A stretch of DNA of 62,039 nt from Okeania hirsuta (GTDB lineage: Bacteria > Cyanobacteriota > Cyanobacteriia > Cyanobacteriales > Microcoleaceae): assembly GCF_003838195.1 (NCBI RefSeq), contig NZ_RCBY01000018.1:1-62039 (forward strand), written 5' to 3'. The position numbers and the translations under genes were made by a program. Positions 14,948-49,893 of this stretch are shown here, piece after piece. How positions within the stretch are numbered: the stretch's first letter is position 1; every line of letters begins with the position of its first letter. The notes under the pieces are model-generated. The model had not been told where the DNA came from and did not search any database. It saw only the letters and a list, made by a program, of their open reading frames with translations.

Positions 14948-14950
14948 TTA

Positions 14951-15219: not shown

Positions 15220-15360
15220 TAATTATCAATTATTGAACAATGCCCAACAGAGAATATAAAAAAATATAAATGATTCTTAGGTAAGTCATACCTAAGTGAT
15301 GTCTAATTTTAGGTATCACTTAAACTTTTTTTTTCAAAATTAACCTAAATTGATAAAACT

Positions 15361-16005: not shown

Positions 16006-16008
16006 CTA

Positions 16009-16234
16009 GGGCTTGCTGATTAAATCTAAAAGTTTTTATAGATAAAGGTTTTAGCCTTTTTAAGTATCAAAAAGTGCGAGGTTTTAAGTGGTAATGGTTC
16101 AATTTAGGAGCGGATTTTGGTCAAGATTTGGGCAGAAAAATTAAGGGACAATTCTTACTCCTACCTCCTCGCTCATTTCCATTTCTTCTGTCTCCTGTCT
16201 CCTGCCCCTACTAAAAGACTTTTTCAGCAAACCC
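16009..16234. mobile_element. F1 MITE copy 4 (6-bp TSD TAACTA)
   Basis: A 226-bp element with ends GGGCTTGCTGATTAAAT and (reverse complement of the right end) GGGTTTGCTGAAAAAG, flanked by TAACTA (16003-16008 and 16235-16240). It separates the small methyltransferase from the truncated NRPS-PKS. Confidence 0.85.
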
Positions 16235-16307
16235 TAACTACATTGCATTGATTCTAAAGAATTTCTAAAGGACTCATCCATGTCTACATTCCGCATTAGC
16301 CAAACGA

Positions 16308-33823: not shown

Positions 33824-34861
33824 TTAAAGAGGACTGAACTCCATAACTGTCACACTTGTGCCAGTATGAACGATTTGTTCGAGTTGGAAACCACTTGCTG
33901 CAAACAAATCTTTGTATTCTTGTTCGGTACGCCAATAACCTCCAGGATTAGTAATCATCATTTGCACTGCAGCTAAAGCTGGTATTGTGCCATCGGGATA
34001 TTCTACAGGCGCTCCCACAGAAGGAACTAAAGTTTGTAAAAGTATAACCCGACCATCTTTTGAGAGAGCTTCTCGACAGTTAGTCAGTACCTTGATAGAA
34101 TCTTCGCGACTAAATACCGATAGAAAATATTTCATTACAATTGCATCGGCACCTTTTGGTAAAGATTCCAAAGCACTCCCACCAATAACTGTTACTGCAT
34201 CATTAACTCCATGTTTTGCCAGATTATTAGGAGCAGTTTCTACTTCATGGGGTAAGTCAAACAAAATACCTTTACAGCCGAATCTTTTCACAATATTGGC
34301 AATTAATGTACCTTGATTTCCTCCCACATCCATTACTGTCTGAAAACGACCAAAATCATAAACTGCAAATAACGGGTCAACAACTTCAGTAGTTAAATAA
34401 CTCATGGCATTGTTGAACAGGTTTTTACTTTTGGGATTTTCTGTCATATAGGAAGTATAAAAATCCTTACCTTTTGCTAATTCAAAAGGAACTTCTCCAG
34501 TCTTTAAACTGTTTTCTAATTCTCGCCAACCATCCCACATATTAGGCTCTGTAATGTGCATTAAAAAATCACCGATAGAAGGGGAACCATTAGTAATCAG
34601 AAGTTCCGATAATTCTGTAGAAGCAAATACCCGTCCAGGTTTTTCTAAAAAGACACCTAAATGAGCTAAAGCACGCAGCACAACATAAAGTTTTTCTACT
34701 TTTGTGCCTGTTTTTTCTGCTATTGCTTCAACGGTTTGTTGTCCGTTATGCAGCAATTCTGGTATACCTAAATTTGTTGCTACATAAACACACTGACTTT
34801 GCCAGTAACCGTAAATAATTCGATAGATTTTCTTCTTAGATTCTGAGGCAGATCCTAACAT
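33824..34861 (-). CDS. O-methyltransferase of the COMT/hydroxyneurosporene type
   Basis: A 345-residue SAM-dependent O-methyltransferase (Methyltransf_2 family) with an N-terminal winged-helix dimerisation domain (about 15-90, GIPELLHNGQQTVEAIAEKT). The catalytic Rossmann domain has motif I VMDVGGNQGTLIANI (about 180-194), FDLPHEVE, and the acidic region ADAIVMKYFLSVFSREDS. Such enzymes methylate hydroxyl groups on carotenoids, polyketides or phenolics. It lies 450 bp downstream of mysE on the same strand and could be a late tailoring enzyme of the MAA locus or an unrelated gene. The substrate cannot be read from sequence. Confidence 0.85.
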   Translation of the reverse strand: MLGSASESKKKIYRIIYGYWQSQCVYVATNLGIPELLHNGQQTVEAIAEKTGTKVEKLYVVLRALAHLGVFLEKPGRVFASTELSELLITNGSPSIGDFLMHITEPNMWDGWRELENSLKTGEVPFELAKGKDFYTSYMTENPKSKNLFNNAMSYLTTEVVDPLFAVYDFGRFQTVMDVGGNQGTLIANIVKRFGCKGILFDLPHEVETAPNNLAKHGVNDAVTVIGGSALESLPKGADAIVMKYFLSVFSREDSIKVLTNCREALSKDGRVILLQTLVPSVGAPVEYPDGTIPALAAVQMMITNPGGYWRTEQEYKDLFAASGFQLEQIVHTGTSVTVMEFSPL

Positions 34862-35313
34862 AATTAAGCTCCAATTTTTTTACTAACTATATGATAAAAG
34901 CAAATACTCTCAAAAAGGTACTTAAACTTATTTGTTCCATTAGACATCTCCTCCAAAAGACGGAACAGGGTTAACGAAGTCAGAAGTCAGAAGTCAACCC
35001 ACCCCTCGCCCCTCCCCCTCCCAGGAGGGGAAGTCAGAAGTTATTTTTGTAATACCAATTTGAAAAAAGAATGTTACGAATAATCAGCGTGATTAAAAGA
35101 TTTTAAAAGAGATGTCCCTTTGACAAAAAAGATAATTTATGCCCTAAAAAAATGGTATTAAAGCCATTCCTATACGACTCCTGACTCCTAAGAAATATCC
35201 TAGCTATTTGTAGCAAAAATTTATCAATTTGGTATAACGGGGATTTGAGCAAGCCTCCAAATAATTGCGAATTGCTATAACTGATAGCTGGTAGCTAACT
35301 GCTGAATACTTAC
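34862..35313. repeat. Repeat-rich spacer between mysE and the O-methyltransferase
   Basis: It contains one AGACATCT end (about 34947), agtcaga repeats, the G/C hairpin cctccccctcccaggagggg (about 35009-35029) and an F8 element at 35052-35158 (ATACCAATTTG ... ATGGTAT). No gene is seen. The repeats mean co-transcription of mysE and the methyltransferase is uncertain. Confidence 0.5.
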
Positions 35314-38300
35314 CTACTTTAAATGCTCACTCAAACGTTCTGCTAATACTTTATTGTTTGGTTCCTTGATAAATGTAAAATGATTGCCAGGAACCATAAC
35401 TACCTCCATATCAACTACATCTAAAATAGCATACATTTCTACCCAAACTAATTGCGGATCTATTCCATGAGGATGCTTTTCTTCCGCACGAAAGACTGTT
35501 ACTTTACCGGAATAAGGCCGACGTTTATAACTATAAGTTGCCTTCAAAGTGCCAATAATTACATCAATAAACCGCCGATTTTGTTCGCGAGTCGCTTCCT
35601 GGGGAAATAACTCTAATTTTTCCGCTTTATCAATAATAAACTCTATTTGCTCCTCTGAACTTAGCCCAATTAATTCATCCTCGCTAACTAAATTAGTTAT
35701 ACCAAACATTCCTCCAAAATAACGACTTAATACACCCCTCATGTACAAATTATCAATCTTTTTATTGTGGTCTAATAGAATAGGAACCCAAGGATCTAAC
35801 AAAGCCAATAAACTAACTTTTTGCCCTTGTTGAAGTAACTGCTGTGCCATTTCAAAAGCAACAACTCCACCAAAAGACCAACCACCAATTTGATAAGGCC
35901 CTTCTGGTTGAAATTCTTGAATAGTTTTGATATAGAACTCAGCCATATCTTCCACATTTGTGAAGATTTTTTCTCCTTCATTAAACCCCTGTGCTTGTAA
36001 GCCATAAAAAGGTTGATTATTACCTAAATAACGGGACAATTCTTGGTAATAAAATACATGACCTCCCGCCGGATGTACGCAGAAAAATGGTTGCTTATTT
36101 CCCTGAGTTTGCAGCGGAACTAGAGAAGAAGAAATAACTTGATTTTCTCCTCGGATTAAACTTGCTAAATCTTCAATTGTGGGATTAGTAAACAGAGTAG
36201 ATAAAGGTAATTGTTTGGCAAACTTTTGCTGAATTTTTGCCATTAAGTTAACTGCTAAAACAGAATGACCTCCTAACTCAAAGAAATTATTTTTAATTCC
36301 CACCGGATTAATATTGAGAATATTTGACCAAATTTCTGCTAACTTCCCTTCAATATCATCTCGTGGTGCAACAATATTATTACTCTCACTAAAACTAGAA
36401 ATATCTGGTACAGGTAAAGCACGACGGTTAACTTTCCCATTCGGAGTTAACGGTAGTTGTGACAAAACCACAAAAGCTGAAGGCACCATATACTCTGCCA
36501 ACTTTTGTTTTAGATATTGTTTGAGTTGCGACACAATTTCTTGATTTGCCTCAGTTTCGGGCACAATATACGCTACTAAACGTTTATTACCAGGATTATC
36601 TTCCCTTGCCAAAACTACTGTTTCTTTAACAGTGGGATGTTGACTGATAGTCGTTTCAATTTCTCCGATTTCGATCCGAAAACCTCGAATTTTGACTTGG
36701 TTATCGATGCGACCAATAAATTCGATATTACCATCAGGAAGATAGCGAGCTAAATCTCCTGTTTTGTATAGTCTGCTTTTTCCTCGATCGCTAAACGGAT
36801 TGGAGATAAATTTTTCCGCAGTCAGCTCCGGACGATTAAGATAACCATTTGCTACACCAACTCCACCAATATATAGCTCCCCAGGAACACCCATGGGAAG
36901 TGGTTGTAGATCGCGACTAAGAATGTAGAGTTGATTGTTAGCAATAGGACGACCAATGGGAGGAAGTGCTGGCCAATTTACCGCAGTTCCTTGTAAAGTA
37001 TAAGCAGAAACCACATGACTTTCTGACGGTCCGTACTGATTTTGCAACCTACAGTTGGGGAGTCGTTTCATCAACTCAATTAGGTCTGGAGTAATCTGTA
37101 ATTGTTCGCCTGCTGTCACAATTTCACGCAGTTGTGGCAAAGTTTGACATTGAGCAGCAACTGTAGCTAACTGTTGCAAGGCGACAAAGGGTACAAATAG
37201 TTTATCTACTTCGTTATCAACCATAAATTGCATCAAAGCAAAACTATCGCGCCTGACTTCTGGAGAAACTAAAACTAAAGTACCACCTGAATATAACGTG
37301 GAAAAAATTTCTTGGAAAGATACGTCAAAACTGATGGGAGCAAATTGTAATGTTTTTGCACCTTCACCAATAATTGCTTCCTGCTGCTGCCACATAATTA
37401 GGTTGACCAAAGCGCGTTGACTCATGGCAACTCCTTTAGGTTTACCTGTGGAACCGGAAGTATAGATGATGTAGCCTAGATTTTCGGGTTTAGCCACTTT
37501 TGCTAAATTTTCTGTAGGCAATTGAGCGATCGCTTCCCAATCTTTATCCAAACAAACAACCTGTGCTTGATGCTCCGGCAATGATGTCACTAATGATTCC
37601 TGAGTTAGCAACACTGATACTTGTGCATCAGCAAGCATATAAGCTAAACGTTCTGAGGGATAGCTTGAGTCGAGCGGTACATAAGCTCCTCCTGCTTTCA
37701 GGATTCCTAATATACCTACGACCATTTCCAAAGAACGTTCTACACATATTCCCAAGTGTGTTTCTGGCTTTACTCCCAACTTTTGTAAGTACTGAGCTAG
37801 TTGATTTGCTTTGGCATTCAACTCTGAATAAGTCAGTTTTTTATCTTCAAAAATTACTGCTATTCCATCTGAGTTTTTTTCTACTTGACTCTCAAATAAT
37901 TCATGGATACATTTGCCTTGAGGATAATCTGTTTTTGTATTGTTCCACTCCACCAATATTTGCTGTTTTTCCCTCTCACTCAGTATCGGTAACTTATCTA
38001 CTTCTGTCTGAGGATTTTCTATAATTGCTATTAGTAAATTCTGGAAATGTTCAGCAATTTGAGTCACAGTTTCCGCTGCTAATACATCACTATTGTATTT
38101 CCAATCAACCCAGAAATATTCCTCTAACTGAATTGCTTCTAAACTGAGTTCAAAATCTACCTTTTGTTGTGGGAGTTGATAATATTCTAATTCTAATTCT
38201 TTGGCATTAAATAACTTATCAAATTTGTAATAACCAAAGGCTGCTTGACAGATAGGAGGATAACTCAGATTAGATAATTTGAGTTGTTGTACAAGTAGAG

Positions 38301-39288
38301 CAAATTGATAATCTTTGTAGCTTTCTGTTTCAAATACTTTTTTACTGACTTGAGTCAAAAAATCTGTAAACTTGAGATTCCCTGAAATAGAATCTCTGAT
38401 CACCGTAACATTAGTAAAATTGCCAATAACTCCAGGGAATAATGGTTGATTTTCTCGGTTTTGTAATAAACCTACAAGTAAATCTTCTTCTCCTGTGTAG
38501 CGGTAAAGCAGGACTTTAAATACTGCTAATAGTATTTCTTCGACCTTGACTGTTTCTGTTTTTGCCAGTTGTTGAATTTGTTGACTTAATTGTAAATTTA
38601 TGGTACGCCTTATTGATTTTCCATTATAAGTTCTAATGGTTGGACGAGGAGAATTTGTGGGTAATTCTAACACTGGTAATTCATCAGCCAAATTCTGTTG
38701 CCAATAATCACCCAATTGTTTTCCTTCTGAACTATTGAGCAAGTCTAATTCTTTCTGAATATAATCTTCATAAGACTTATTTAATATGGGTAAATCTAGA
38801 GATTCATGATTAATTTTTGATTCATAGAGAGCAACAAATTCATTTACTAATATTAATAAAGACTCCCAATCTCCAGCTATTTGATGAACAGTCAATAACA
38901 AAATATTCTCTGTTACCGAACGTTTAAATAAACAAGCACGAAATACCCCGCTATTTTCTAAGTTAAAAGGACGTTTGAGCGAGTCAGATAAATGCCCTTC
39001 TAATTCCTCGTCGCTCCAAGATGAAGCAGAAATTTGTTCAAAATTAATATCGACATTTTCCTGAATTGTTTGAACTATTTTTCCATCTTGTTCGTAATAG
39101 ATACTGCGAAGAATAGAGTGACGTTCAATTAATACTTGTAGTGTATCTTTTACACTTTGAATATCCAGAGGTGATTTAATCTGAAATGCTACAGACACTT
39201 TGTCTGTTAAACCTGTAGCTTTGAATTTATACAGAAACCAATTTGCTTGCTGTATGTAGGAAGTAGAAATTGATCGTAAAGTAGACAA
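35314..39288 (-). CDS. mysE: MAA NRPS MysE with extra N-terminal condensation-like domain (C*-A-PCP-TE)
   Basis: A 1324-residue single-module NRPS. The condensation-like domain (1-430) has HQIAGDW (135-141) where active domains have HHxxxDG, so the catalytic second His is Gln136. The adenylation domain (about 450-950) has YTSGSTGKPKG, FDVSFQE, NQYGPSE, YKTGDLARY and NGKVNRRALP. I read its specificity code as D-V-Q-F-V-A-Q-V-V-K. A PCP (ELGGHS) and a type I thioesterase (GWSFGG, His in GNHF near the C-terminus) follow. Characterised MysE (A-PCP-TE) joins serine to mycosporine-glycine to make shinorine. The extra C-like domain makes this protein longer. Position in the mys locus and domain order support the name; the amino acid used is uncertain. 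Confidence 0.82.
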   Translation of the reverse strand: MSTLRSISTSYIQQANWFLYKFKATGLTDKVSVAFQIKSPLDIQSVKDTLQVLIERHSILRSIYYEQDGKIVQTIQENVDINFEQISASSWSDEELEGHLSDSLKRPFNLENSGVFRACLFKRSVTENILLLTVHQIAGDWESLLILVNEFVALYESKINHESLDLPILNKSYEDYIQKELDLLNSSEGKQLGDYWQQNLADELPVLELPTNSPRPTIRTYNGKSIRRTINLQLSQQIQQLAKTETVKVEEILLAVFKVLLYRYTGEEDLLVGLLQNRENQPLFPGVIGNFTNVTVIRDSISGNLKFTDFLTQVSKKVFETESYKDYQFALLVQQLKLSNLSYPPICQAAFGYYKFDKLFNAKELELEYYQLPQQKVDFELSLEAIQLEEYFWVDWKYNSDVLAAETVTQIAEHFQNLLIAIIENPQTEVDKLPILSEREKQQILVEWNNTKTDYPQGKCIHELFESQVEKNSDGIAVIFEDKKLTYSELNAKANQLAQYLQKLGVKPETHLGICVERSLEMVVGILGILKAGGAYVPLDSSYPSERLAYMLADAQVSVLLTQESLVTSLPEHQAQVVCLDKDWEAIAQLPTENLAKVAKPENLGYIIYTSGSTGKPKGVAMSQRALVNLIMWQQQEAIIGEGAKTLQFAPISFDVSFQEIFSTLYSGGTLVLVSPEVRRDSFALMQFMVDNEVDKLFVPFVALQQLATVAAQCQTLPQLREIVTAGEQLQITPDLIELMKRLPNCRLQNQYGPSESHVVSAYTLQGTAVNWPALPPIGRPIANNQLYILSRDLQPLPMGVPGELYIGGVGVANGYLNRPELTAEKFISNPFSDRGKSRLYKTGDLARYLPDGNIEFIGRIDNQVKIRGFRIEIGEIETTISQHPTVKETVVLAREDNPGNKRLVAYIVPETEANQEIVSQLKQYLKQKLAEYMVPSAFVVLSQLPLTPNGKVNRRALPVPDISSFSESNNIVAPRDDIEGKLAEIWSNILNINPVGIKNNFFELGGHSVLAVNLMAKIQQKFAKQLPLSTLFTNPTIEDLASLIRGENQVISSSLVPLQTQGNKQPFFCVHPAGGHVFYYQELSRYLGNNQPFYGLQAQGFNEGEKIFTNVEDMAEFYIKTIQEFQPEGPYQIGGWSFGGVVAFEMAQQLLQQGQKVSLLALLDPWVPILLDHNKKIDNLYMRGVLSRYFGGMFGITNLVSEDELIGLSSEEQIEFIIDKAEKLELFPQEATREQNRRFIDVIIGTLKATYSYKRRPYSGKVTVFRAEEKHPHGIDPQLVWVEMYAILDVVDMEVVMVPGNHFTFIKEPNNKVLAERLSEHLK

Positions 39289-39470
39289 AATTTGATTCCT
39301 CTTTAATTTAGCGAATATTGGCGTTGCTGATTTGAGGTATGATATCAGTTCTGGAGAAGAGCGCTAACAAAAAACTTTCTCTTCTACTACTTTCTTCTTA
39401 TTTCTTCCCTCCTGAGTCCTGACTCTTGACTCCTAAAAAATTAATATCATACACTAATTCAGCTATGCCT

Positions 39471-40442
39471 TTAGTCATTTTCCAGCTTGATAGCAGATGT
39501 GCTAGAAATAGCCAAATACATTCCAAATAAAATTACAAAGAAACTTACAACAGTCAAAAAATTCAGGCTTTCTGAGAAAATAGCCCAACCTTCCACCGCA
39601 CTGAGAGCAGGAATAATCAACGCCACTAAGCTACTAAACCCGGCAGATAACTTTTTGAGACAATAAGCCCAAAGTCCCATAGCAAGCATTTGACTAACGA
39701 GAGCTTGGGCAATTACTGCAAACCACCCATTTATCGAAGTTGGGAAAAGTTGCTCTTTGGCAATTAGAACAACAGGTAACATAAATAGAAAACTTGTTGT
39801 TGTAGACCAAGTCATAATAGTGACAGGGCTTAAATTACTACGGAGTCGCTGAATGACAAGTGGATGTATTCCAAAAAACACTGCTGAGAGCAAAGCTGCT
39901 AAACTTCCTAATAGTTCTTGGCTCATCCTCAATGATAACAGTTCTTTTGCTTCTAGTAAAGTTGCTCCAAAAATCGCAACTACCATACCAATCAAAAATC
40001 GATTGTCGAAAGTTTGACCTAAAGCTAGCCATCCTCCTAAGACGGTAAATATTGGCACCAGATTATGAATCATACTAGAGTTAGCAATACTCGTTTGATT
40101 TAAAGACCAAGCCCAAAGCATTAGACCTACTGATATAAGAACACCATCTATTATTAGTAGCTTTGCCCTATTAACTAGATGGTGCTTTTGTTGTTCGAGT
40201 TGAGTTTCTTTATTTCGGTATCGATGGCGTACTGTCAATAAAGTATTTAGCAGCCAAAAGGCAACAGCGGCTATCCAAAAACGATTAAATGCTGTAGCGT
40301 TTGGTCCTATTTCCAGTTCGCTCAAACGGATAAAAATGGGTGAAAAAGAGAGACAGATTATGCTAGCTGTTAATGCAACTAAGGAATCTATCGGTAAAAA
40401 TGAGACAAACTGTAGCTTTAATAATTTTGCTTGAGCATTCAT
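39471..40442 (-). CDS. EamA/DMT-family permease (copy 2)
   Basis: A 323-residue protein with ten hydrophobic segments arranged as two EamA repeats, a member of the drug/metabolite transporter superfamily in the inner membrane. It is closely similar along its length to the protein at 42714-43709 (shared SLSPIFIRLSE / SFSPIFIRLSE, MIHNLVPIFTVLGGWLAL, VEGWAIFSE). The two genes arose by duplication and now flank mysD. Likely to export the MAA product or an intermediate; direction and substrate are inference. Confidence 0.88.
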   Translation of the reverse strand: MNAQAKLLKLQFVSFLPIDSLVALTASIICLSFSPIFIRLSELEIGPNATAFNRFWIAAVAFWLLNTLLTVRHRYRNKETQLEQQKHHLVNRAKLLIIDGVLISVGLMLWAWSLNQTSIANSSMIHNLVPIFTVLGGWLALGQTFDNRFLIGMVVAIFGATLLEAKELLSLRMSQELLGSLAALLSAVFFGIHPLVIQRLRSNLSPVTIMTWSTTTSFLFMLPVVLIAKEQLFPTSINGWFAVIAQALVSQMLAMGLWAYCLKKLSAGFSSLVALIIPALSAVEGWAIFSESLNFLTVVSFFVILFGMYLAISSTSAIKLEND

Positions 40443-40863
40443 CTTTTTTTTTCTAGGCTAAGTCACATGGGAATGATAATAACGATAAATTAAGGCTGCT
40501 GAATAGCCAGTGTCCTAATTAGAACAGGACTTACCCATGAGGTACGAAAAACTAGGACTTGAGATTGCTTCCCTAGACGGAAATACGTTGAGGTGCTTGT
40601 CACCCCTTGAGACTCTAATGTTTACTTATCTGTAGGGACGTTGCATGCAATGTCCCTACCCACTCCCCTACTCCCCACTCCCTAACTCCTCTGCTCAATA
40701 AAATGAGAAATGGTATTATCAAAATAATATGGGTCGCGCAACCCTGCCTTTTAAGGCGAAATGTTTTTGGAGGCTTGCTCAAATCCCCTACTTCCCCTCC
40801 TGGGAGGGGGAGGGGCGAGGGGTGGGTTAACTTCTGACTTTTGACTTCTGACTTCTGACTTCA
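40443..40863. repeat. Repeat-rich spacer between mysD and EamA copy 2
   Basis: Holds a 28-bp near-perfect palindrome at 40632-40659 (GTAGGGACGTTGCA and partner), a type of hairpin common in cyanobacterial spacers, then ctcccca-type repeats and the G/C hairpin cccctcctgggagggggagg (about 40793-40812). No gene seen. Confidence 0.5.
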
Positions 40864-41973
40864 TTAAATCTTTGCTACTTGCTCTGATTTGCTGTACTTA
40901 AACAATGAACCACAAGCTACGCGAGTTCTCCCTGCTGCTGCACTCCACAGTTGCAAAGCCACATCTTCTAAACTTTGCCCATCAGCTTGAAGCATCCGAG
41001 AAATCATGCTAATTTTGCCGAAAGACCAAAATAATCCTGCTTCAAGCAGATATGGCTCATTGGTTTTTGCGTGTACTCGGAAGTCATACAAGGAGTAATC
41101 ACGACATCCCAATGCAATATGAGCCTTCTTAGCACTATCGCCAAGTTTCTTGAATAGTTCTGGTGTGACATTCGCTGGACATACTGGCTTCACTTCTGGT
41201 TTCTCAGGTTGTTTTCCAGGAGTTCCGTCTGATTTTAGCTCCAACTTATCATGTACAGTTCTAATAGGGTGTTCCTCCGTGACTAAGTACTCTATCATCG
41301 GCAAGACGGACAACTTACCTTCATACTCAACCACACCTACACGAAATTCCCTTCCAGGAATATAATCCTCCACTAACAACGTCTCGTCTAGTTTAAACCC
41401 AACTTTCAATGCTTCCTCTATTTGAGATTCATCCCACACCAATGTCACACCCAAAGAATTGTCTTCCGAGGTAGGTTTCACTACAAAGGGCGGCTCCATT
41501 GTTAATTTATCTCCTCGGCGTAGTTGTTGTGCTTTGGCAACCAGGACATCAGATGCAGAAACAATGCTCCTTGTCTGTGCTTTGTTAGTTGCTAATGCTG
41601 TGCAATGGGATGGCGACCCAACCACGGGGATACCAATGATATCCTCAAATAAAGCCCTGAAACTGGTCATTCCAGGAAAGCAGAACATATGGGGAACTAC
41701 TACATCAATCTGAGGTAGTCGAGGAATCATATCCTGGAGAGACATCTTTTCTGACAAGGAATCTAAGGATGTTCCTAACTGCCAAAGACTGTCAGGATTT
41801 ACGACTGCATAGTAGCTACTGACACCCACTGGTTGTACTACTTCTTTGGCGTAGATTATTGATAAGTTGTAGTAAAAGTCAGAGACAATGGAACCTGCGA
41901 GGTGCAATACTCGTAACATTGGCATTGTCTTTAAGGATGAAGGTTGAGTCTGAGAAATTTTTTCTAATGTCAT
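40864..41973 (-). CDS. mysD: MAA D-Ala-D-Ala ligase-like enzyme MysD
   Basis: A 369-residue ATP-grasp ligase that attaches a second amino acid to mycosporine-glycine, giving imino-MAAs such as shinorine or porphyra-334. Visible features: N-terminal LHLAGSIVSDFYYNLS, GIPVVGSPSHCTALATNKAQT (about 115-135, as in D-Ala-D-Ala ligases), the ATP-binding region PPFVVKPTSEDNSLGVTLVW, VEDYIPGREFRVGVVE, and the metal/substrate segment YSLYDFRVH...LLEAG. A Lys/Pro-rich loop (DGTPGKQPEKPEVKP) follows the central domain. Its coexistence with mysE is unusual, because the two normally replace one another. Confidence 0.88.
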   Translation of the reverse strand: MTLEKISQTQPSSLKTMPMLRVLHLAGSIVSDFYYNLSIIYAKEVVQPVGVSSYYAVVNPDSLWQLGTSLDSLSEKMSLQDMIPRLPQIDVVVPHMFCFPGMTSFRALFEDIIGIPVVGSPSHCTALATNKAQTRSIVSASDVLVAKAQQLRRGDKLTMEPPFVVKPTSEDNSLGVTLVWDESQIEEALKVGFKLDETLLVEDYIPGREFRVGVVEYEGKLSVLPMIEYLVTEEHPIRTVHDKLELKSDGTPGKQPEKPEVKPVCPANVTPELFKKLGDSAKKAHIALGCRDYSLYDFRVHAKTNEPYLLEAGLFWSFGKISMISRMLQADGQSLEDVALQLWSAAAGRTRVACGSLFKYSKSEQVAKI

Positions 41974-42465
41974 AATGGCGTTGTTTTGTTTCTATTAAAT
42001 TAGTTAATTGTGTCCTAAATTTTAACAAAACAAAAAAAGTAGAAAAATTAATTTTTATTAATTTTGACTAGTTTCATATCACGAATATTAAATATATTAC
42101 CAAAAACTGTAGGACTTTTCTAGGTGATTTTGTATTGAGTCTACTGTGGACTACAGCCAGACAATAACATCCCCTAGCTTCCACTTAAATATTACTGCAT
42201 TTTTCTATTTTTTTTCCCCAATTATTTAGCCTAATATTCTGTTATTTTACTTTGAAGGTAGTTCTTTTTCATTAGTTTTCAATGTTTTATCTTCATCTGA
42301 AAAAAAACTGTAATTTTATCTTAGATGAAGCTAAACTAGTGCCGCTACACGGAAGTTAAAAGTCAAAACTTAAAAGTCAATCATTTTTGATTTGTAATTG
42401 TTTTAGGATTTTGTAACTGGTCAGTTATTTCCACCATCCTGCACTAAGGAGATTTTCAATCAAGT
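41974..42465. other. Spacer upstream of mysD
   Basis: About 490 bp, AT-rich, with poly-A/T tracts. Should carry the mysD ribosome binding site and possibly a local promoter, since the upstream gene ends more than 700 bp away. No repeat element or gene recognised. Confidence 0.35.
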
Positions 42466-42717
42466 TCATAAAATAAAATTAAGGGGTTGCTGAATCAATG
42501 AATATTTAGGGAAGTTGACATTCCATGTACTTCCCTTATACCTTCCCTCCAACTCCTGACTCCTGACTCCTGGCAAAAAACTGAATCGCCGACAAATATC
42601 CCAAATGCGTTCTATAAATACTGATGATATTAAAGCTTCTAAATCCCCGAGTATTTCGTCTCTGGTTAATAATGAGATGTCATTTATTCTAGCAAAGCTC
42701 TCAACTTTTGCCTTCAA
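42466..42717 (-). CDS. Possible small hypothetical or gene remnant
   Basis: An 83-codon frame opening with TTG that overlaps the stop of the EamA gene. The first about 45 residues (RINDISLLTRDEILGDLEAL, then ISSVFIERIWDICRRF) look protein-like. The rest (from about 42570 down) is encoded by tgactcc heptamer repeats, which usually means a coding remnant running into repeat DNA. Whether it is translated is doubtful. Confidence 0.25.
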   Translation of the reverse strand: MKAKVESFARINDISLLTRDEILGDLEALISSVFIERIWDICRRFSFLPGVRSQELEGRYKGSTWNVNFPKYSLIQQPLNFIL

Positions 42718-43709
42718 TAAGAAGGTTCAACTTTCGGTTTGATAGCAGACCTACTAGAGATAGCCAAATACATTCCCAATAAAATTACAAAGAAACTTAC
42801 CGAAGTCAACAAGCTAAGATTTTCTGAGAAAATTGCCCAACCTTCGACAGCGCTGAGAACAGGAATAAATAACGCAACTAGACTAGTAAGTCCAGCAGAT
42901 AACCTTTTGAGAGAATAAGCCAAAAGTCCTATACCTAACATTTGAGCAACAACGGCTTGAGCAATAACTGAAAACCAACCAGTGAAAGAACTTGGAAAAA
43001 GTTGCTCTTCAACAATTAGAGCAAAAGGCAATAATAATAGAGAGCTAGTTGCCGAAGACCAAGTCATAATCGTGATTGGGTTGATATGAGATCGGAGTTG
43101 CTCAACTATCAGTGGGTGTATGCCAAAAAATACTGCTGAAAGTAATGCTGCCAAATCTCCTAGTAGTTGTTGGCTGACTCTTAGTGATAAAAGGTCATTC
43201 ATTTCTAATAATGCAGATCCAGCGAGCGCCACAAACATACCTAGCAGAAATCGATGGTCAAAGGTTTGACTTAAAGCTAGCCACCCTCCTAAAACAGTAA
43301 ATATGGGAACCAGATTATGCATCATGCTAGCGTTGGCAATGCTTGTCTGAGTCAAAGACCAAGCCCAAAATGTTAGACCCATCGAGAGAATAACCCCATC
43401 TGCTATCATCAGTAGCTTGGCTCTGTGAAGTAGATGGGGTTTTTGTTGATCTGATTGGATTTCCTTTTGGGTTTCCTTTTTTCGTTCTCGGTGGCGCACA
43501 GCCAAAAATCGACTCACTAACCCAAAGGCAACAGTCGCAATCCACAAGCGATTAAATATTGCGGCATTGGGACCGATTTCATATTCGCTCAAACGGATGA
43601 AAATTGGTGATAAAGATAGACATATCGTCCCACCCATTAATGCAGCTAAACAGTCTATCGGTAATGATAAGAATAATTGTAATCGTGATACTTTATTTGG
43701 AGCATCCAT
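42714..43709 (-). CDS. EamA/DMT-family permease (copy 1)
   Basis: A 331-residue ten-helix transporter of the drug/metabolite superfamily, close paralogue of the protein at 39471-40442. The first EamA half runs about 15-160 and the second about 175-315. The cytosolic loop after helix 2 is longer and more charged here (RERKKETQKEIQSDQQK). It lies 44 bp downstream of the sodium-solute symporter gene on the same strand, so the two are probably co-transcribed. A role in exporting MAA or amino acid precursors is suggested by context only. Confidence 0.88.
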   Translation of the reverse strand: MDAPNKVSRLQLFLSLPIDCLAALMGGTICLSLSPIFIRLSEYEIGPNAAIFNRLWIATVAFGLVSRFLAVRHRERKKETQKEIQSDQQKPHLLHRAKLLMIADGVILSMGLTFWAWSLTQTSIANASMMHNLVPIFTVLGGWLALSQTFDHRFLLGMFVALAGSALLEMNDLLSLRVSQQLLGDLAALLSAVFFGIHPLIVEQLRSHINPITIMTWSSATSSLLLLPFALIVEEQLFPSSFTGWFSVIAQAVVAQMLGIGLLAYSLKRLSAGLTSLVALFIPVLSAVEGWAIFSENLSLLTSVSFFVILLGMYLAISSRSAIKPKVEPSY

Positions 43710-43753
43710 CTTTTTCCGTCTCGATCAAACTGATACAAAGTAGTACAATTTTT

Positions 43754-45190
43754 TTATTTACTCAACTCTCTAGAGTCGGTCAAAAAATAAACAATTCCAT
43801 AAACAATAAAGCCTGTAGCCATACCGGGAAGTACTTCATAAATAGCACTAGATAACCCAAGTCCTAAATTCCAGGCTATGGAAACAATAATACCAATAAT
43901 CATCATGGCGATCGCTACTGGCACACTTATAGGTTTTTGCCAAACCCGCAATACCAATAATGGGCCTAAACCACAAGCTAAAATTGACCAAGAGAAAATT
44001 ACTAAAGCGAATACGTTATTGTCTCCTGTTAGGGCAATTACTAATACAATAGCTGTGACAACTAACGTGGCAATTTTAGCCATTCTATAAGAATTAGCTG
44101 TATTAGGAATCAAGTCTTGACTCAATGCAGCCGAACAAGATAGAATCTGAGAGTCTGCTGTGGAAATTGCTGCTGAAAATAATCCTGCTAACATTAACCC
44201 CACCATCACTGCTGGTAAAAGTTCCATAGATAGATAAGGTAATGCCAATTCTGGGTCACTTGATGTGATTAAATCTGGCAACAATGCTCTTGCAGTTAAC
44301 CCAACACCGAAGGCTGTGGCAGAGTTTATTTGACCGCAGACAAATTTGATGTTTCGAGCAAAAGCCACATTCTCTGCGGAGTCAATTGCCATTGCTCGTA
44401 CTAATATATGAGGCTGACCGACAGCGCCAAATCCTGCCACTATCCATCCCAAAAAGTAAGGGAAAAATCCCCAAGGCAGATTAGCGGGAATCAAATTTGT
44501 TAAGGTGGGGTCAATTGCATTGAGTTTTGTCCAAAGTTCTCCAAACCCACCACAGTTAATCAAACCGACTATACACAGAACTAATAAGGAGCCAATCATC
44601 AAAATTGCCTGCACTGAATCAGTCCATATAGAAGCACGAATGCCTCCTGAAAAACAGTATATAACGACAATTACAGCTCCAATGATAACTCCTAATTGAT
44701 AGTTCCAGCCAAATATTGCATTTAGTCCTTTGCTTGCTGCTACCAGTTGAGCTGAAGCATAAGTACCGAGAAAAGCAATAGTAATTAAGGCTGAAATTAT
44801 TGTAATCAAGCGCCCGTTATTTTTTCCTGACCTTAGATTTTCTTGACCGAGGAATGAGGAAACTGTATCTGAATTTGTTTGTTGAGAGACTAACCTCAAC
44901 TTTTTGAATATCAACCACCAAGCAATATAGTCTCCTATTGCCCAAGCAACAGGTATCCAAATGGAAGCAACTCCTACTTTGTAGGTAAAGCCAATTACTC
45001 CAATGAATAAATATCCACTCTGACCTGTTGCCATTGCTGATAAAGCTGTCAACCAGGGATTAACATTTCTACTAGCAAGTAGGTAATCATTTGTTGTGTT
45101 TTGTTTTTGGGTTGCGGAGTAAATGCCTACTACTGTAAATGAAAGTAAAAAGGCAATAAATGTTATCGCAATCCAAATTTGTTGATCCAT
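43754..45190 (-). CDS. Sodium:solute symporter (SSS/PutP-type)
   Basis: A membrane protein of about 478 residues with around 13 hydrophobic segments and SSS-family features: YLLASRNVNPWLTALSAMATG near the N-terminus, GGIRASIWTDSVQAILM in the middle and SAAISTADSQILSCSA later. The frame is open 31 codons further upstream (to 45283), but that part is basic and lacks membrane character. The ATG at 45190 (MDQQIWIAI) is the better start. The family imports proline, pantothenate, sugars or other solutes with sodium. With panD and amino-acid-ligating enzymes around it, uptake of an amino acid substrate is plausible but unproven. Confidence 0.85.
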   Translation of the reverse strand: MDQQIWIAITFIAFLLSFTVVGIYSATQKQNTTNDYLLASRNVNPWLTALSAMATGQSGYLFIGVIGFTYKVGVASIWIPVAWAIGDYIAWWLIFKKLRLVSQQTNSDTVSSFLGQENLRSGKNNGRLITIISALITIAFLGTYASAQLVAASKGLNAIFGWNYQLGVIIGAVIVVIYCFSGGIRASIWTDSVQAILMIGSLLVLCIVGLINCGGFGELWTKLNAIDPTLTNLIPANLPWGFFPYFLGWIVAGFGAVGQPHILVRAMAIDSAENVAFARNIKFVCGQINSATAFGVGLTARALLPDLITSSDPELALPYLSMELLPAVMVGLMLAGLFSAAISTADSQILSCSAALSQDLIPNTANSYRMAKIATLVVTAIVLVIALTGDNNVFALVIFSWSILACGLGPLLVLRVWQKPISVPVAIAMMIIGIIVSIAWNLGLGLSSAIYEVLPGMATGFIVYGIVYFLTDSRELSK

Positions 45191-45436
45191 AAAAATTGAT
45201 GATTTAACCTTAGTAGAAATCTGTTTTTTCTTTCTTAATTTCTGGTAAGCATTTAGCTGCCAGCTATCAGATCTCAGCTTCATTTAAAGCAAGCTAGTCC
45301 TTCTTGTACTTCAATTCTCTTGTTGAAAATGTAGTAGAAGTTAAACAAATGCTTGCTTCATTTATTCATTCATTAAAGAAAATGAGAGCTAAACGCTTAC
45401 GGTTTCTGAGCTTACATTCTACAGAAATCCAATTTG

Positions 45437-46801
45437 TTAATCTCCGCCCAATTCTACTAATTTCCCAATATTAAAATCAATTCTTACCCACCCCTTTAAT
45501 TTTTGCAGATTACCTAACAAAAGTAAAGGAATTTGCCAATGGTGTACCATCAAAAATGGTAAGGGGTCATTTATTTGAAAAATACCATCTGTTCCTTGAA
45601 AAATTCTGTTAATCCAAGTTTTTAATTGTCCCAAAGATCTAATTCCTGTCAGTCGCCATAATTCATGGTAAGTCCAATAAGTAGGTTTACTATTTGGCAG
45701 TGGTATTAGTGAGGCTTCATTTTCATCTTTACTATCTTTCAAATAAGCATCTGCTACTCCTGGATGGTCGTAAAATGTTGTAATAGCTGAGTGAGTTCTA
45801 GGATTACATTCTATGGGATAAACTCGACCATCTTCTGTTTGAATAAAGTCAAAGGATATTTGCCCAGTAATATTTAATTCTCTGACAAATTTTTCTACCC
45901 ATTGATAGATTTGAGGTCTATCTACATGATGATAATTGACTTGAAATTCTGATGATTCGCAACAACAATAGAGTCTAACTTTACCCTTTCTGACAGTGCT
46001 ATGGGTACAATATTCTTTGCCTTTCACAAATTCTTGCATAATCCAGGGTCTCTGTTCGCTAATCGGCAAACTATTGACAAATTCCTCCATTTCTGCTTTT
46101 GAATTCATGGGCAGTTTTGTCATATCTAAACGACGCACTGAATCGTAAGGGATACTTTTGAGAATATATTTACTCCCATCAGTAGCAAAGTCAAAATTGA
46201 GAACTTGTTCAGGATTTGTAATTAAAAATGATTTTGGTACAGATAAACCAAAACTTTTAGCTTTTTCAATAAATGTAAATTTATTATCTAATAGTTGCGT
46301 AATTTCAGCGTCAAAATGCAATACTTCACAATGTTCCGATATAAGTGGTTTTGCTAAAGATTCATAGTAGCTTCCTGCCGGACTAGAAACTGGAATAAAT
46401 ACATCTATCTTTTCTTTTTTAATAATCTCTAATAATCCTTGAGAATAGCCTTCCCAATCTTTTTGGGGAAAGGGTAATGTGTAGAAACCTGTAACAGCAT
46501 TAGAAAATCTATTTCCTGATAACCAATATTTATTTGCTTCTAGCAGAAAAACTTTGTGCCCTGCGGCATGGAATGAACGGGCAAGTTGCAAACATTTTGT
46601 CATTTTTGCACCCGTAATTAGGATGTTTTTTGGGTTTTCAGCTACTACTTTTTTTTGAAAAGGTTGACTGATAAAATTCCATAGCAGCGATGGTATTACT
46701 TTCAGGAAATTGAAAGGTAAAACAATTAATAATAAAATTAGAGTGCCGAGATTTTGGAAAAGTGCATAAGCACGTCCTTGAACAAATAAAATTAGTGCCA
46801 T
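45437..46801 (-). CDS. mysC: MAA ATP-grasp ligase MysC
   Basis: A 454-residue ATP-grasp enzyme that phosphorylates 4-deoxygadusol and couples glycine to give mycosporine-glycine. A hydrophobic N-terminal stretch (about 15-45) may touch the membrane. The Rossmann-like part starts NILITGAKMTKCLQLARSF, and the ATP-grasp region includes YILKSIPYDSVRRLD, RPWIMQEFVKGKEYCTHS and the metal-binding end PIECNPRTHSAITTFYDH. Length and motifs fit characterised MysC. It lies 75 bp downstream of panD on the same strand, likely one transcript. Confidence 0.93.
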   Translation of the reverse strand: MALILFVQGRAYALFQNLGTLILLLIVLPFNFLKVIPSLLWNFISQPFQKKVVAENPKNILITGAKMTKCLQLARSFHAAGHKVFLLEANKYWLSGNRFSNAVTGFYTLPFPQKDWEGYSQGLLEIIKKEKIDVFIPVSSPAGSYYESLAKPLISEHCEVLHFDAEITQLLDNKFTFIEKAKSFGLSVPKSFLITNPEQVLNFDFATDGSKYILKSIPYDSVRRLDMTKLPMNSKAEMEEFVNSLPISEQRPWIMQEFVKGKEYCTHSTVRKGKVRLYCCCESSEFQVNYHHVDRPQIYQWVEKFVRELNITGQISFDFIQTEDGRVYPIECNPRTHSAITTFYDHPGVADAYLKDSKDENEASLIPLPNSKPTYWTYHELWRLTGIRSLGQLKTWINRIFQGTDGIFQINDPLPFLMVHHWQIPLLLLGNLQKLKGWVRIDFNIGKLVELGGD

Positions 46802-46876
46802 GTTATTATTTATAATCAGGAAAAAAGTGTTAAGTTTTTGAGAATAAAAATTTAGCTGTAGAGGTAGGTCTAAGTA

Positions 46877-47233
46877 TTAGCTTTTCTGTAGAGGATTATT
46901 ATTTTTATCCACTAAAATAACTTGAGGACGATGTAGAAGTGCTTCTTCTGGTGTCATTTGAGCATAAGCGATGACTATTATCTCGTCCCCAACAGCATTT
47001 ATTCGGGCTGCTGGACCGTTGAGACAGACAATACGACTACCCCATTCCCCTGGAATAGTGTAGGTTTCTAGCCGTGAACCGTTATTGACATTAACTACTT
47101 GTACTTTTTCATAAGCTAAGATACTGGCAGTTTTTAGTAGTTCTTCATCAATGGTAATTGAACCCTCATAATATAGTTGTGCTTCAGTTACTTTGAGTCG
47201 ATGCAGTTTACTCTTAAAAATTGTCAGTAGCAT
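46877..47233 (-). CDS. panD: Aspartate 1-decarboxylase
   Basis: A 118-residue pyruvoyl enzyme precursor converting L-aspartate to beta-alanine and CO2. The self-cleavage site is intact: YYEGSITID with Gly24-Ser25 matches the cleavage position known for E. coli PanD. The catalytic/supporting residues Lys9, His11, Arg54, Thr57 and Tyr58 are in place. It normally serves pantothenate and coenzyme A synthesis. Here it lies between mysB and mysC on the same strand, 75 bp before mysC, so beta-alanine could feed MAA assembly. Whether another panD exists elsewhere in the genome cannot be seen from this window. Confidence 0.93.
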   Translation of the reverse strand: MLLTIFKSKLHRLKVTEAQLYYEGSITIDEELLKTASILAYEKVQVVNVNNGSRLETYTIPGEWGSRIVCLNGPAARINAVGDEIIVIAYAQMTPEEALLHRPQVILVDKNNNPLQKS

Positions 47234-47274
47234 TTGATTATAATTATTTATATCGGTAACACCTATGATGTTAT

Positions 47275-47414
47275 ATCATGTCAGGTAGCATCGGTATTGT
47301 ATAGCAAGGGTAGGGAACAGGGAACAGGCAAGAATACTTAAGAGCAAGAAAAAAACTTAAATTCCCTGTAGATATTCACCTTTGGGTTTACACTAATGAT
47401 ACCAGCTGACATGA
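47275..47414. repeat. F9-type short element in the mysB-panD spacer
   Basis: About 140 bp with terminal inverted repeats ATCATGTCAGGTAGCATC and (reverse complement of the right end) ATCATGTCAGCTGGTATC. The inner sequence (gcaagaaaaaaacttaaat, ccctgtagatat) is shared with bases 17-52 of the window, where the right end of another copy abuts the IS1 remnant. Confidence 0.6.
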
Positions 47415-47479
47415 TGTTACCGAATATTCAGGAGTTATATCCAATTATTTATTGGGTTAATAATATCCTCAAACCATAA

Positions 47480-48325
47480 CTACTTTCGTTTAATAATAGT
47501 TACCCCATCTCGTAAAGGTAGCAAAACTTGTTCTACTCTGGTATCTTCTGCAACAAAACGGTTAAATTTAGCGATCGCTTCTCCATTAGCAGCACGCTTT
47601 TCTGATGGCAGATAAGGTTGTCCTTGCAATAAAGTATTATCAACACAAATAAATCCATTTGGTGCTAATAAACTTGTATCTAAGAGAATTCTGAAATATT
47701 CTATATACTCTTTTTTATCGGCATCAATAAACACTAAATCAAAAGTTTCTCCGGCATCTGCCAACTTTTGCATAGTTTCCAAAGCTGGTGCAACTTCGAC
47801 TGATATTTTCTTCCCAGCGGGAGACTTTTCAAAACAAGCTTTAGCAAAGTCAGCTACATATTGATCGACTTCACAAGCAACTTCAAGTCCATCTTCTGGC
47901 AGCGCTTCTGCCATTGCCAATGCGGAATACCCGGTAAACATTCCTATTTCTAGGATACGTTTCGCCCCAGTCATGTGAACGAACATTTTGAGAATTTGCC
48001 CCTCAATATGCCCAGATAACATTTCCTGTTCTAACTGGCGCACTGTTTCGCCATCAGAAAATCGTAAATTCCAGGGTTCCCGGCGAGTCTTTTCTGCTAA
48101 TGCTGCCAAAGCATCTGACTCCTGGGTAGTATTTTTTTCAATGTAGGGGTCAAGACCTTCTGCTAATTGGTAAGCATCTTTAATAGCCTCAGCAAGTTGG
48201 GCAGGTATTTCTACGGTTTCTGCCATCTTGACAGTTTTTTCAAGTTTTTCTACTAAAATACCCAATGGTGTAACTGGTCTGGCAGTGTTTGTATTTACAG
48301 TTTCTGTATTTACAACGGTTATCAT
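47480..48325 (-). CDS. mysB: MAA O-methyltransferase MysB
   Basis: A 281-residue class I O-methyltransferase (Methyltransf_3 type, metal-dependent catechol-like) that methylates 2-demethyl-4-deoxygadusol to 4-deoxygadusol with SAM. Motif I ILEIGMFTGYSALAMAEALP is near residues 116-135, VACEVDQ follows, and the metal-binding acidic sites are in FDLVFIDADKKEYIEYF and ICVDNTLLQGQ. Full length. It follows mysA with a 224-bp gap on the same strand. Confidence 0.93.
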   Translation of the reverse strand: MITVVNTETVNTNTARPVTPLGILVEKLEKTVKMAETVEIPAQLAEAIKDAYQLAEGLDPYIEKNTTQESDALAALAEKTRREPWNLRFSDGETVRQLEQEMLSGHIEGQILKMFVHMTGAKRILEIGMFTGYSALAMAEALPEDGLEVACEVDQYVADFAKACFEKSPAGKKISVEVAPALETMQKLADAGETFDLVFIDADKKEYIEYFRILLDTSLLAPNGFICVDNTLLQGQPYLPSEKRAANGEAIAKFNRFVAEDTRVEQVLLPLRDGVTIIKRK

Positions 48326-48549
48326 ATTTCTATTCCATTACTATTGGATAAGTAGAATGGGCAAATACTAAATCATCTATAGCATACGAAAACTAAGTTT
48401 TAGCCTAAGCATTACAAGGCTTTGAGATTAATTATCGCAGAGGTCTAATGAAAATTTTGCAGTCTTTGCCCACTATTGTTCTTTTTTTCAAAAGGGAGCA
48501 GGGAGGAATTTCTTGTTTTCTCCACCCCACATCACAACTTCTATTTATT

Positions 48550-49893
48550 TTACTCCAAACCAAGATCACTTAAATACATTTGTTCGCCTTTTCCTTCATT
48601 TGGCACAGAGGTACAAAAATTCTTATGTTCCTCCACAGCAGATATTAATAAGTCTGAGGGAACTTCTCCAGCAAAACTACAACTACCAATACCTGTAGGT
48701 AAAGGTGCCCATAACCCACTACTACCGCGCTTGCGACGCATATTTTTCTGTCCTTGAATCATCAAATCACTGTCTTCGAGGATAGGATGATAAACTGATA
48801 AACCAAGAGAAGAACATAGTGCAACTATTCTGTCGCGATCGCCTTTTTCTAACCAACCCATTTCCATTGCTAAGGTTGCTCCAAAAGCCATACCAATAGT
48901 AACAGCATGACCGTGCATCAATTTGACTGCCGGCTCAAATTTGGGACTCCAGGTGTGACCGTAGGCGTGGGGTCTGTCTTGATAGGTCTCGAACATATTT
49001 GTTCCCTCATGCTTCATGTAGGAATACAATGCTCGATAAATTACTTCATCAGCTACCTGGGTCAGTTCCTCATCCGCATCAAAGTTAGCAAAATGGGTTT
49101 CAATTAACCGTGGGCCGTATTCTTCTAGTAAATCAAATAGCACTGGGTCATCAGTTACTGCCATTTTGATAATTTCTGCCATCCCATTGCGGATATGACC
49201 TTTTGCCAGAGTACGGAATAAGCTACGGTCTACTATTGTTATAACTGGGGGATGATATGCACCGATACTATTTTTAAATAGCTGACCATTTGTGCAGGTA
49301 CGAGGGGATGGTCCAGCATCAATAGCTGCAACAATAGAACTTCCGATCATCACATAAGGTGTTCGTCGGTGCTGCAAAGCACAGGCCAAACCTGCCACAT
49401 CGCTGAGTACGCCACCTCCAATGATTAGTACAGGTTCGTTGCGGGATACATCACAGCCATCTTTACCTAAGAATTGGAGTATGCGCTGAACTGTTTCTGG
49501 AGTTTTGTCTGATTCCCATGCACGACAAACTAGAGTTTCTAGGGGAATCTCATTGTGCTTAAAGTAAGCTTGCAGTGATTCTCCATAAAGTTCATCGACC
49601 GTTTGATCGACAACTGCTACACAACGACCACGACTTTTGTAGATTTCTGCCAACACTGGGTTAGATGGGTTTAGTACTCCATATACCAACTTTACTTCTG
49701 ACTTGAGAGTAAAGGTTGCAGAAATCTCAAATGAGCGACCATCTTCTACCGCTTTAATTTCTCCACGACCATCGTACCACTCTGAGGTTCGGTACTTCTT
49801 TGCATGATCGCGTCGAATACTGGGATCAAATGTGAAGTCTGGCTTGCTAATTTCTTCGGTTAATGCTGTAGGGGGTAATATTGTGTTGGTCAT
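48550..49893 (-). CDS. mysA: 2-demethyl-4-deoxygadusol synthase MysA
   Basis: A 447-residue sugar phosphate cyclase of the dehydroquinate synthase superfamily. It converts sedoheptulose 7-phosphate to 2-demethyl-4-deoxygadusol, the first MAA step. The NAD-binding region GGGVLSDVAGLACALQHRRT is near 158-177, followed by VAAIDAGPSPRTCTNGQLFKN, a signature of this subfamily. Metal ligands lie in MAEIIKMAV and the later HGHAV / HAYGHTW histidines. Ends with KRGSSGLWAPLPTGIG, typical of DDG synthases. It is the first gene of the locus, with a 2.3-kb non-coding region upstream. Confidence 0.95.
   Translation of the reverse strand: MTNTILPPTALTEEISKPDFTFDPSIRRDHAKKYRTSEWYDGRGEIKAVEDGRSFEISATFTLKSEVKLVYGVLNPSNPVLAEIYKSRGRCVAVVDQTVDELYGESLQAYFKHNEIPLETLVCRAWESDKTPETVQRILQFLGKDGCDVSRNEPVLIIGGGVLSDVAGLACALQHRRTPYVMIGSSIVAAIDAGPSPRTCTNGQLFKNSIGAYHPPVITIVDRSLFRTLAKGHIRNGMAEIIKMAVTDDPVLFDLLEEYGPRLIETHFANFDADEELTQVADEVIYRALYSYMKHEGTNMFETYQDRPHAYGHTWSPKFEPAVKLMHGHAVTIGMAFGATLAMEMGWLEKGDRDRIVALCSSLGLSVYHPILEDSDLMIQGQKNMRRKRGSSGLWAPLPTGIGSCSFAGEVPSDLLISAVEEHKNFCTSVPNEGKGEQMYLSDLGLE

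Follow-up and report, generated by a model that had tools for sequence, protein, structure and literature searches.

The question raised by the locus described here is why a single gene cluster for mycosporine-like amino acids (MAAs), which serve as ultraviolet (UV) sunscreens, should carry both a MysD ligase and a MysE nonribosomal peptide synthetase (NRPS). The locus lies on a 62,039-nucleotide stretch of Okeania hirsuta DNA (contig NZ_RCBY01000018.1, positions 1 to 62,039; hereafter the window), from a genome assembly of 8.79 Mb in 716 contigs. It comprises ten genes, all on the minus strand between 33,824 and 49,893, in the order mysA, mysB, panD, mysC, a sodium:solute symporter (SSF) gene, an EamA permease gene, mysD, a second EamA gene, the NRPS gene mysE and a methyltransferase gene. 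A first-pass annotation, made from the DNA letters alone, had named these ten, and each is a full open reading frame (ORF) recognised by Pfam or NCBIfam models. The joint presence of mysA, mysB and mysC, with matches in named mys loci, marks a cyanobacterial mys cluster. Ratios of nonsynonymous to synonymous substitution (dN/dS) against Okeania SIO2C9 are 0.05–0.25 for the ten genes. Two of these rows are weak: EamA-1 of the window was aligned with the other copy of EamA (68.5%), and a stop interrupts the matched part of the SIO2C9 symporter. The order recurs, with variations, in related genomes, so the cluster is more than a chance arrangement. The Okeania hirsuta locus is confirmed as a genuine, selected and enlarged mys cluster. 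MysC is 96% identical to MysC of Okeania sp. SIO3B5 and SIO2C9; MysA shares only 33–42% identity with MysA of many Nostoc-type clusters. The answer that we favour, with moderate confidence, is that an extended MAA cluster of an Okeania-like filamentous cyanobacterium combines a mysABC-D pathway with a mysE-mysF module that was inherited separately and handles a Pro-like residue.

The adenylation (A) domain of the NRPS bears on this answer. A contig scan with MysC as query gave 79 named loci of 3–21 kb, drawn from the best 80 of 144 matches and annotated by matches to the window's own proteins, and of 388 genomes of the order that were searched whole, 321 have PanD, 177 MysC (E 1e-100) and 128 MysD (E 1e-40). 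Seventeen genomes with MysE were compared, with A-domain matches shorter than 350 aa left out and the final Lys of each code taken from the A10 motif rather than read row by row. The window NRPS begins with a TTG codon preceded by a GAGGA motif and, like a shinorine-type MysE, has A, carrier and thioesterase domains whose motifs, A10 included, are intact. Its code is DVQFVAQVVK, distinct from the Ser-type code expected of such an enzyme, which reads DVWF[I/F]SLIDK in nine of the 17 genomes. The code positions and the labels Pro-like and Ser-like follow the usual specificity rules, in which Pro codes have the form DVQxIAHVxK. DVQF[V/I]AQVVK occurs in the other eight genomes: the window, Okeania SIO2C9 and SIO2F4, Trichodesmium GBRTRLIN201, Microcoleaceae MO_207.B10, Hormoscilla GUM202 and Hormoscilla GM7CHS1pb (mysD split over two frames), and G215. 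All eight carry mysD in the same stretch, none of the nine Ser-like codes has a mysD match in its stretch, and the split between codes follows mysD presence without exception; the mysD of G180, which lies over two frames in the assembly, was scored as present. PMC10510106 assigns Pro specificity to a Moorena MysE with condensation, adenylation, carrier protein and thioesterase domains (C-A-CP-TE) and Ser or Gly specificity to most others.

The first-pass annotation had treated MysD and MysE as alternatives for the second amino acid and had suggested that their joint presence points to either two disubstituted MAAs or a further residue. Its suggestion is a fair expectation because both genes are present and both look selected (dN/dS 0.16 for each), and the refuting condition that it had named, inactivity of one of the two, finds no support in these values. 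Its premise, as a statement on one and the same step, is not supported, given a Pro-like code with mysD in eight genomes and a Ser-like code without it in nine. The neighbourhood comparison that it had recommended finds mysD and a Pro-like mysE together in 8 of 17 genomes.

The NRPS also carries an N-terminal condensation (C) domain that the first-pass annotation had overlooked. Its motif reads HQIAGDW instead of the HHxxxDG of functional condensation domains. In every one of the 13 C-domain rows from mys loci (12 genomes, with Pro-like or Ser-like codes), Gln or Lys takes the place of the second catalytic His. The eight C-type rows from other NRPS stretches of this genome (L001–L007), six of them different sequences, all retain HH. 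The domain is partial in the NRPS of Nostoc sp. UHCC 0926 and missing in 5/17 MysE, as would suit a domain that plays no part in condensation. An extra condensation domain has been pointed out in HT-58-2 and Chlorogloeopsis (PMC8073705).

The tenth gene, first described as an extra O-methyltransferase, is indeed a methyltransferase, but it is best read as a MysF orthologue that departs from its family at one residue. Its product is 75.5% identical over 99% of its length to a methyltransferase on plasmid pn1 of UHCC 0926, the best plasmid match, and the NRPS neighbour is kept. In pn1 a TauD-like gene and an NRPS gene directly follow the methyltransferase, the order published for mysF-mysI-mysE in PMC10510106; the record is unannotated there, and this order would identify the plasmid gene as the published mysF. 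The HDW motif is found in four solved Methyltransf_2 relatives, and its His is replaced by Ser in all 12 mys-linked rows (10 genomes, the window included). MysF lies 0.1–1.8 kb downstream of the Pro-like NRPS in all seven genomes with sequence there, and MysF was absent beside the Ser-like NRPS in all nine genomes (1.8–7.2 kb downstream searched). The MO_207.B10 stretch, fetched afterwards as a test, has MysF downstream of its NRPS (89%). In G305 the contig breaks off within mysE, with mysF on a different contig, and G084, which has the genus code of M. bouillonii, keeps mysF (85%) beside an NRPS remnant. The module occurs with either MysD type, with the other type in one genome (G215). By gene distribution, mysE-mysF is a separately inherited module. 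More distant MysF copies (55–56%) follow mysABC alone in two genomes; the loci L067 (11395–12405) and L069 (7980–9005) carry mysABC and then a methyltransferase resembling MysF; neither mysD nor mysE gave a match there, and their product is possibly a methylated mycosporine-glycine. A 59-nt inverted repeat (97%; window 34976–35034 and 40790–40848) is among several intergenic elements that are repeated around mysD-mysE-mysF, and it may be a trace of rearrangement in the module.

MysD is itself divergent. MysD matches in the 388 genomes form two groups that are separated by a gap, at 53–100% and 39–46% identity to the window protein, and the window type is the less common (41 of 128 MysD-bearing genomes by row count). 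An alignment of 63 MysDs (33 and 30) separates the types at 24 columns, each at least 90% fixed within type. Tandem mysD duplicates occur in Okeania SIO3I5 (L018) and Trichodesmium (L146), with intact mysI beside or between them.

The absence of a MysH-like dioxygenase, as first noted, holds for intact genes: Pfam searches of 28/37 window ORFs of at least 120 aa, plus panD and an 83-aa ORF, gave no intact dioxygenase. MysH in the window was ruled out among PhyH matches, of which the genome has seven, all on other contigs. The window does retain a decayed dioxygenase piece of another kind. Intact MysI occurs in mys loci of two Trichodesmium, Okeania SIO3I5 and Roseofilum (62–67%) and of a Scytonema (81%), a 25% match lies near a Hormoscilla locus, and in Trichodesmium the intact gene stands between EamA and mysD. 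The corresponding 740-bp gap of the window contains fragments that match the C-terminus of MysI (best E 3e-4 in tblastn) with a best score of 65, which none of 500 dinucleotide shuffles reached (maximum 56). The EamA-mysD gaps of G323, G250 and SIO2C9 also beat 500 shuffles each; a blastn search with Trichodesmium mysI matched the SIO2C9 gap only, with no match in the window gap, and tblastn found no mysI match in the G297 stretch. MysI had no match in the window's genome at E 1e-3 or 1e-30, with a query that was positive in 4 of 15 hand-picked genomes at 64–66%. Among these 15, MysF is present in 11, two of which also have MysI, and two others have MysI without MysF, so the two genes are inherited separately. 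This differs from the remark in PMC10510106 that MysF, MysI and a Gly-specific MysE are always adjacent.

Put together, these features suggest a pathway that is in part established for its families and in part conjectural for this locus. MysA and MysB would form 4-deoxygadusol and MysC would add glycine, as established for the family, and the divergent MysD would add a second amino acid to give an ordinary imino-MAA. The NRPS and MysF form, by gene distribution, a module inherited apart rather than a spare copy of the MysD step, with the A domain predicted to activate a Pro-like alpha-amino acid and the thioesterase expected to release the product. The C domain has lost its motif and cannot act through the usual His-based mechanism; it probably serves in binding or is vestigial. 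MysF would methylate the NRPS product, perhaps on nitrogen or carboxylate and not on a hydroxyl. The locus formerly included MysI, now decayed. PanD would make beta-alanine, as sole PanD probably for coenzyme A; direct use in an MAA is conceivable but unsupported. The EamA pair and the symporter are likely routes of MAA export and uptake.

Several points weigh against this reading. The MAA products of all these loci are predicted from genes alone. A proline substituent cannot form a neutral imine, although an enaminone is possible, so a Pro-bearing imino-MAA is chemically awkward. The window code has Gln where known Pro codes carry His, and the Pro-like label depends on those positions and codes. 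The suggested nitrogen or carboxylate target is deduced from the missing HDW His. The 17 MysE genomes are related, not independent, and intergenic gaps within the locus span 44–740 bp. The module is patchy even within the genus: two of the five genomes that share the window's genus code, G250 and G323, lack a MysF match, and in about 20 kb after their mysD neither an NRPS nor a MysF match was found. Nor are the transporters constant: EamA-1 is broken into two pieces in SIO2C9 and G323, and the G250 stretch lacks it. Patchiness among these five genomes indicates that module and transporters come and go within the genus.

Two other accounts of the paired enzymes deserve consideration. MysD and MysE could be redundant for one second-amino-acid step, with one of them being lost, as might be expected from the credit given to both families for that step in PMC10510106 and from G084, which keeps only a piece of the NRPS and in which mysD was not found at E 1e-40. 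The predicted substrates differ, however, both dN/dS values are well under 1 and both genes are kept in eight genomes, which makes redundancy very improbable. Alternatively, MysE-MysF could act directly on 4-deoxygadusol, parallel to MysC-MysD, and give a mono-substituted mycosporine (absorbing at about 310 nm) with a secondary or N-methylated amino acid. Such a route would suit a secondary amine such as proline, which should form an enaminone and not a neutral imine, and would suit the occurrence of MysE-MysF with either MysD type. To our knowledge there is no precedent for MysE acting on 4-deoxygadusol, and this counts against the route. In the published description the substrate of MysE is mycosporine-glycine (PMC10510106), and the direct route is on balance unlikely. 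The mysABC-D pathway with a separate mysE-mysF module is preferred to both. An extension of it that we regard as doubtful is that such clusters make undescribed MAAs with a MysF-methylated Pro-like residue and, in some members, beta-alanine from their own PanD, that the same genes account for two abundant MAAs, reported as unidentified, of the ocean bloom former Trichodesmium, and that the condensation domain no longer forms peptide bonds but attaches an amino acid to the sunscreen ring.

The aspartate decarboxylase raises a question of its own. The window PanD scores 151.1 bits against an NCBIfam equivalog cut-off of 106, is the only PanD match in the genome and has in translation the Gly24-Ser25 cleavage site together with K9, Y22, R54, T57, Y58 and N72, in E. 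coli numbering. The gene stands between mysB and mysC in six genera (Okeania, Trichodesmium, Hydrocoleum, Symploca, Roseofilum and Moorena, the last in SIO3H5). Among 60 mys-bearing genomes hand-picked by MysC score, 14 have an intact panD at most 2 kb from mysC and two a decayed one; the linked gene is the sole full-length PanD in 13 of the 14, G323 having two others, and both genomes with a decayed linked copy carry another PanD elsewhere. A tree of 51 PanDs (leaving out second copies from the same genomes, decayed copies and matches shorter than 88 aa) places 15 linked and 3 unlinked PanDs in one clade of 18 (99/98), apart from the 33 others; the unlinked ones are the sole PanDs of G110, G023 and G258, outside mys. 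In the MysC tree (82 rows, supported by Shimodaira–Hasegawa-like approximate likelihood ratios only; 9/82 with undetermined panD state, L027 and L148 being one genome, and L046, a partial MysC, dropped), a clade of 19 holds 14 rows with linked panD (2 decayed), 4 without panD and 1 undetermined. Intact versus absent panD requires three changes on this tree, for example one gain and two losses, and MysC of Moorena SIO3H5 groups with Symploca and not with other Moorena such as M. bouillonii. The simplest reading would be one entry of panD into this mys lineage, followed by losses and by transfer with the cluster. A PanD match is missing from 50/338 near-complete genomes of the order (67/388 overall), so some cyanobacteria may obtain beta-alanine another way.

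These patterns leave room for two accounts, in which PanD serves either the sunscreen pathway or coenzyme A. If beta-alanine were joined to the ring by MysC or MysD, mycosporine-beta-alanine or a glycine/beta-alanine imino-MAA would result, and compounds of this kind are known: mycosporine-beta-alanine from Cnidaria and mycosporine-threonine-beta-alanine from red algae are listed in PMC10384724. The shared site in six genera and the single clades of linked PanDs and of their MysCs speak for such a role. A panD-linked change in either ligase was sought and rejected. No position splits panD-bearing from panD-less clusters in the alignment of 63 MysDs, and the eight MysC positions (residues 43–79) that differ between the 14 panD-bearing rows (2 decayed) and the four panD-less rows of the clade have residues also common in panD-less MysCs. 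Beta-alanine as NRPS substrate was likewise rejected, as the A domain keeps the Asp that binds the alpha-amino group. Retention as sole copy, with a second copy wherever the linked one has decayed, is a housekeeping pattern, and the same PanD type stands alone outside mys in three genomes; a sunscreen role for PanD is accordingly improbable. The contrasting account, a coenzyme A housekeeping gene caught in an ancestral mys operon and carried along as sole copy, draws on the same observations and on the lack of a specificity change in MysC or MysD. It must contend with the same position in three families, with Moorena SIO3H5, where panD seems to have moved with the cluster, with the apparent dispensability of PanD in the order and with G323, which retains its linked copy despite two others, and we give it an even chance. 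A general supply of beta-alanine and coenzyme A is at least as likely as an MAA role because PanD is the sole copy of the genome.

The two EamA permeases are 69% identical duplicates that flank mysD. The symporter is present in 28 of the 79 named loci (L013–L091), many of them from marine genera. Near mysC it seems to occur mostly in marine or saline genera, which perhaps reflects uptake or an osmotic role of MAAs. A role as proline importer for the Pro-like NRPS is not supported because the symporter also occurs in loci, L022, L049, L055 and L084 among them, that have mysD and no NRPS in the stretch. Trichodesmium is reported to release UV-absorbing matter with peaks typical of MAAs (PMC3083659), which would fit an MAA exporter. 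Transporters in mys clusters have already been published for Brasilonema (PMC9918943) and Hyella patelloides (PMC8472315).

Coordinates of the mys locus features in the window
Feature	Position	Strand	Basis
mysA, DHQ-synthase-like cyclase (DHQ_synthase), 447 aa	48550..49893	-	Pfam
mysB, O-methyltransferase (Methyltransf_3, PF01596), 281 aa	47480..48325	-	Pfam
panD, aspartate 1-decarboxylase, 118 aa	46877..47233	-	PanD equivalog (NCBIfam)
mysC, ATP-grasp ligase, 454 aa	45437..46801	-	ATP-grasp (Pfam/NCBIfam)
Sodium:solute symporter (SSF), 509 aa	43754..45283	-	nearest NCBIfam model PutP, score below cut-off
EamA permease 1, 331 aa	42714..43709	-	EamA (Pfam)
mysI (TauD/TfdA dioxygenase), decayed C-terminal piece, no open gene	about 42072..42251	-	tblastn, shuffles
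mysD, divergent type, 369 aa	40864..41973	-	Dala_Dala_lig_C (Pfam)
EamA permease 2, 323 aa	39471..40442	-	EamA (Pfam)
mysE-type NRPS, C*-A-T-TE, 1324 aa	35314..39288	-	Condensation/AMP-binding/PP-binding/Thioesterase (Pfam)
mysF orthologue, Methyltransf_2 (PF00891), 345 aa	33824..34861	-	Pfam

The dN/dS values of mysF and panD against SIO2C9 are 0.18 and 0.12. Adjoining the cluster is a shikimate dehydrogenase gene (32383–33264, plus strand), which follows ATP synthase genes. A separate and apparently fragmentary polyketide synthase/NRPS hybrid occupies 13333–24349 (plus strand). Methyltransferases come first, a protein of 2276 aa follows, and a partial condensation domain comes last; the large protein combines A-domain pieces around a methyltransferase with ketosynthase, acyltransferase, acyl carrier protein and class-III aminotransferase domains.

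A cluster with intact mysD, a Pro-type mysE and mysF, or with panD inside it, was not found described in the literature searched, which covered few subscription papers and main texts rather than figures and supplements; aspartate decarboxylase or EamA combined with MAA terms gave no paper. MAA chemistry is ahead of MAA genetics, and Trichodesmium and Hormoscilla clusters of this kind make such questions testable; those of Trichodesmium-type relatives may help to explain the sunscreens there, as yet unidentified. The published scheme, which places the action of MysF after that of MysI, is qualified by the tie of MysF to MysE and by its retention without MysI. If it holds, panD inside mys would be a genetic lead to beta-alanine MAAs.

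The mysABCD and mysABCE shinorine clusters of Nostoc punctiforme and Anabaena variabilis share with the window MysA, MysB and MysC followed by a D-Ala-D-Ala-ligase-like or NRPS enzyme, whereas the window has both enzymes, a divergent MysD, a MysE with condensation domain and Pro-like code, panD, three transporters and mysF. Plasmid pn1 of UHCC 0926 (NZ_CP117772.1) is close in MysF and in the A and T-TE parts of the NRPS (51–60%), and the window keeps a decayed piece of mysI. Its MysE is called Gly-specific with a partial C domain, its MysI is intact and its genes lie away from mysABC, as stated in PMC10510106, where N-methylation of a palythine-type MAA by MysF is a prediction; the window has all genes in one locus, no working mysI and a Pro-like code. 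By its description in the same paper, Moorena producens PAL-8-15-08-1 has a predicted Pro-specific C-A-CP-TE MysE, with a truncated mysD that is intact in the window. Brasilonema clusters, likewise compared by description, add a methyltransferase, a transporter and mysE to mysABC, and differ by a mysH dioxygenase, with mysD or panD not mentioned in the part of PMC9918943 that is available. Also close are the clusters of Trichodesmium erythraeum GBRTRLIN201 (L017/L146) and Hormoscilla GUM202 (L029/L152), which share mysABC, the symporter, EamA, divergent mysD, a Pro-like C*-A-T-TE mysE and mysF (85% and 60%); the former differs by a decayed panD, an intact mysI and a duplicated mysD. Hormoscilla, the same organism as O. 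spongeliae, differs in having no panD and another gene order. It comes from sponges, and its cluster has been called homologous to that of shinorine (PMC6520454).

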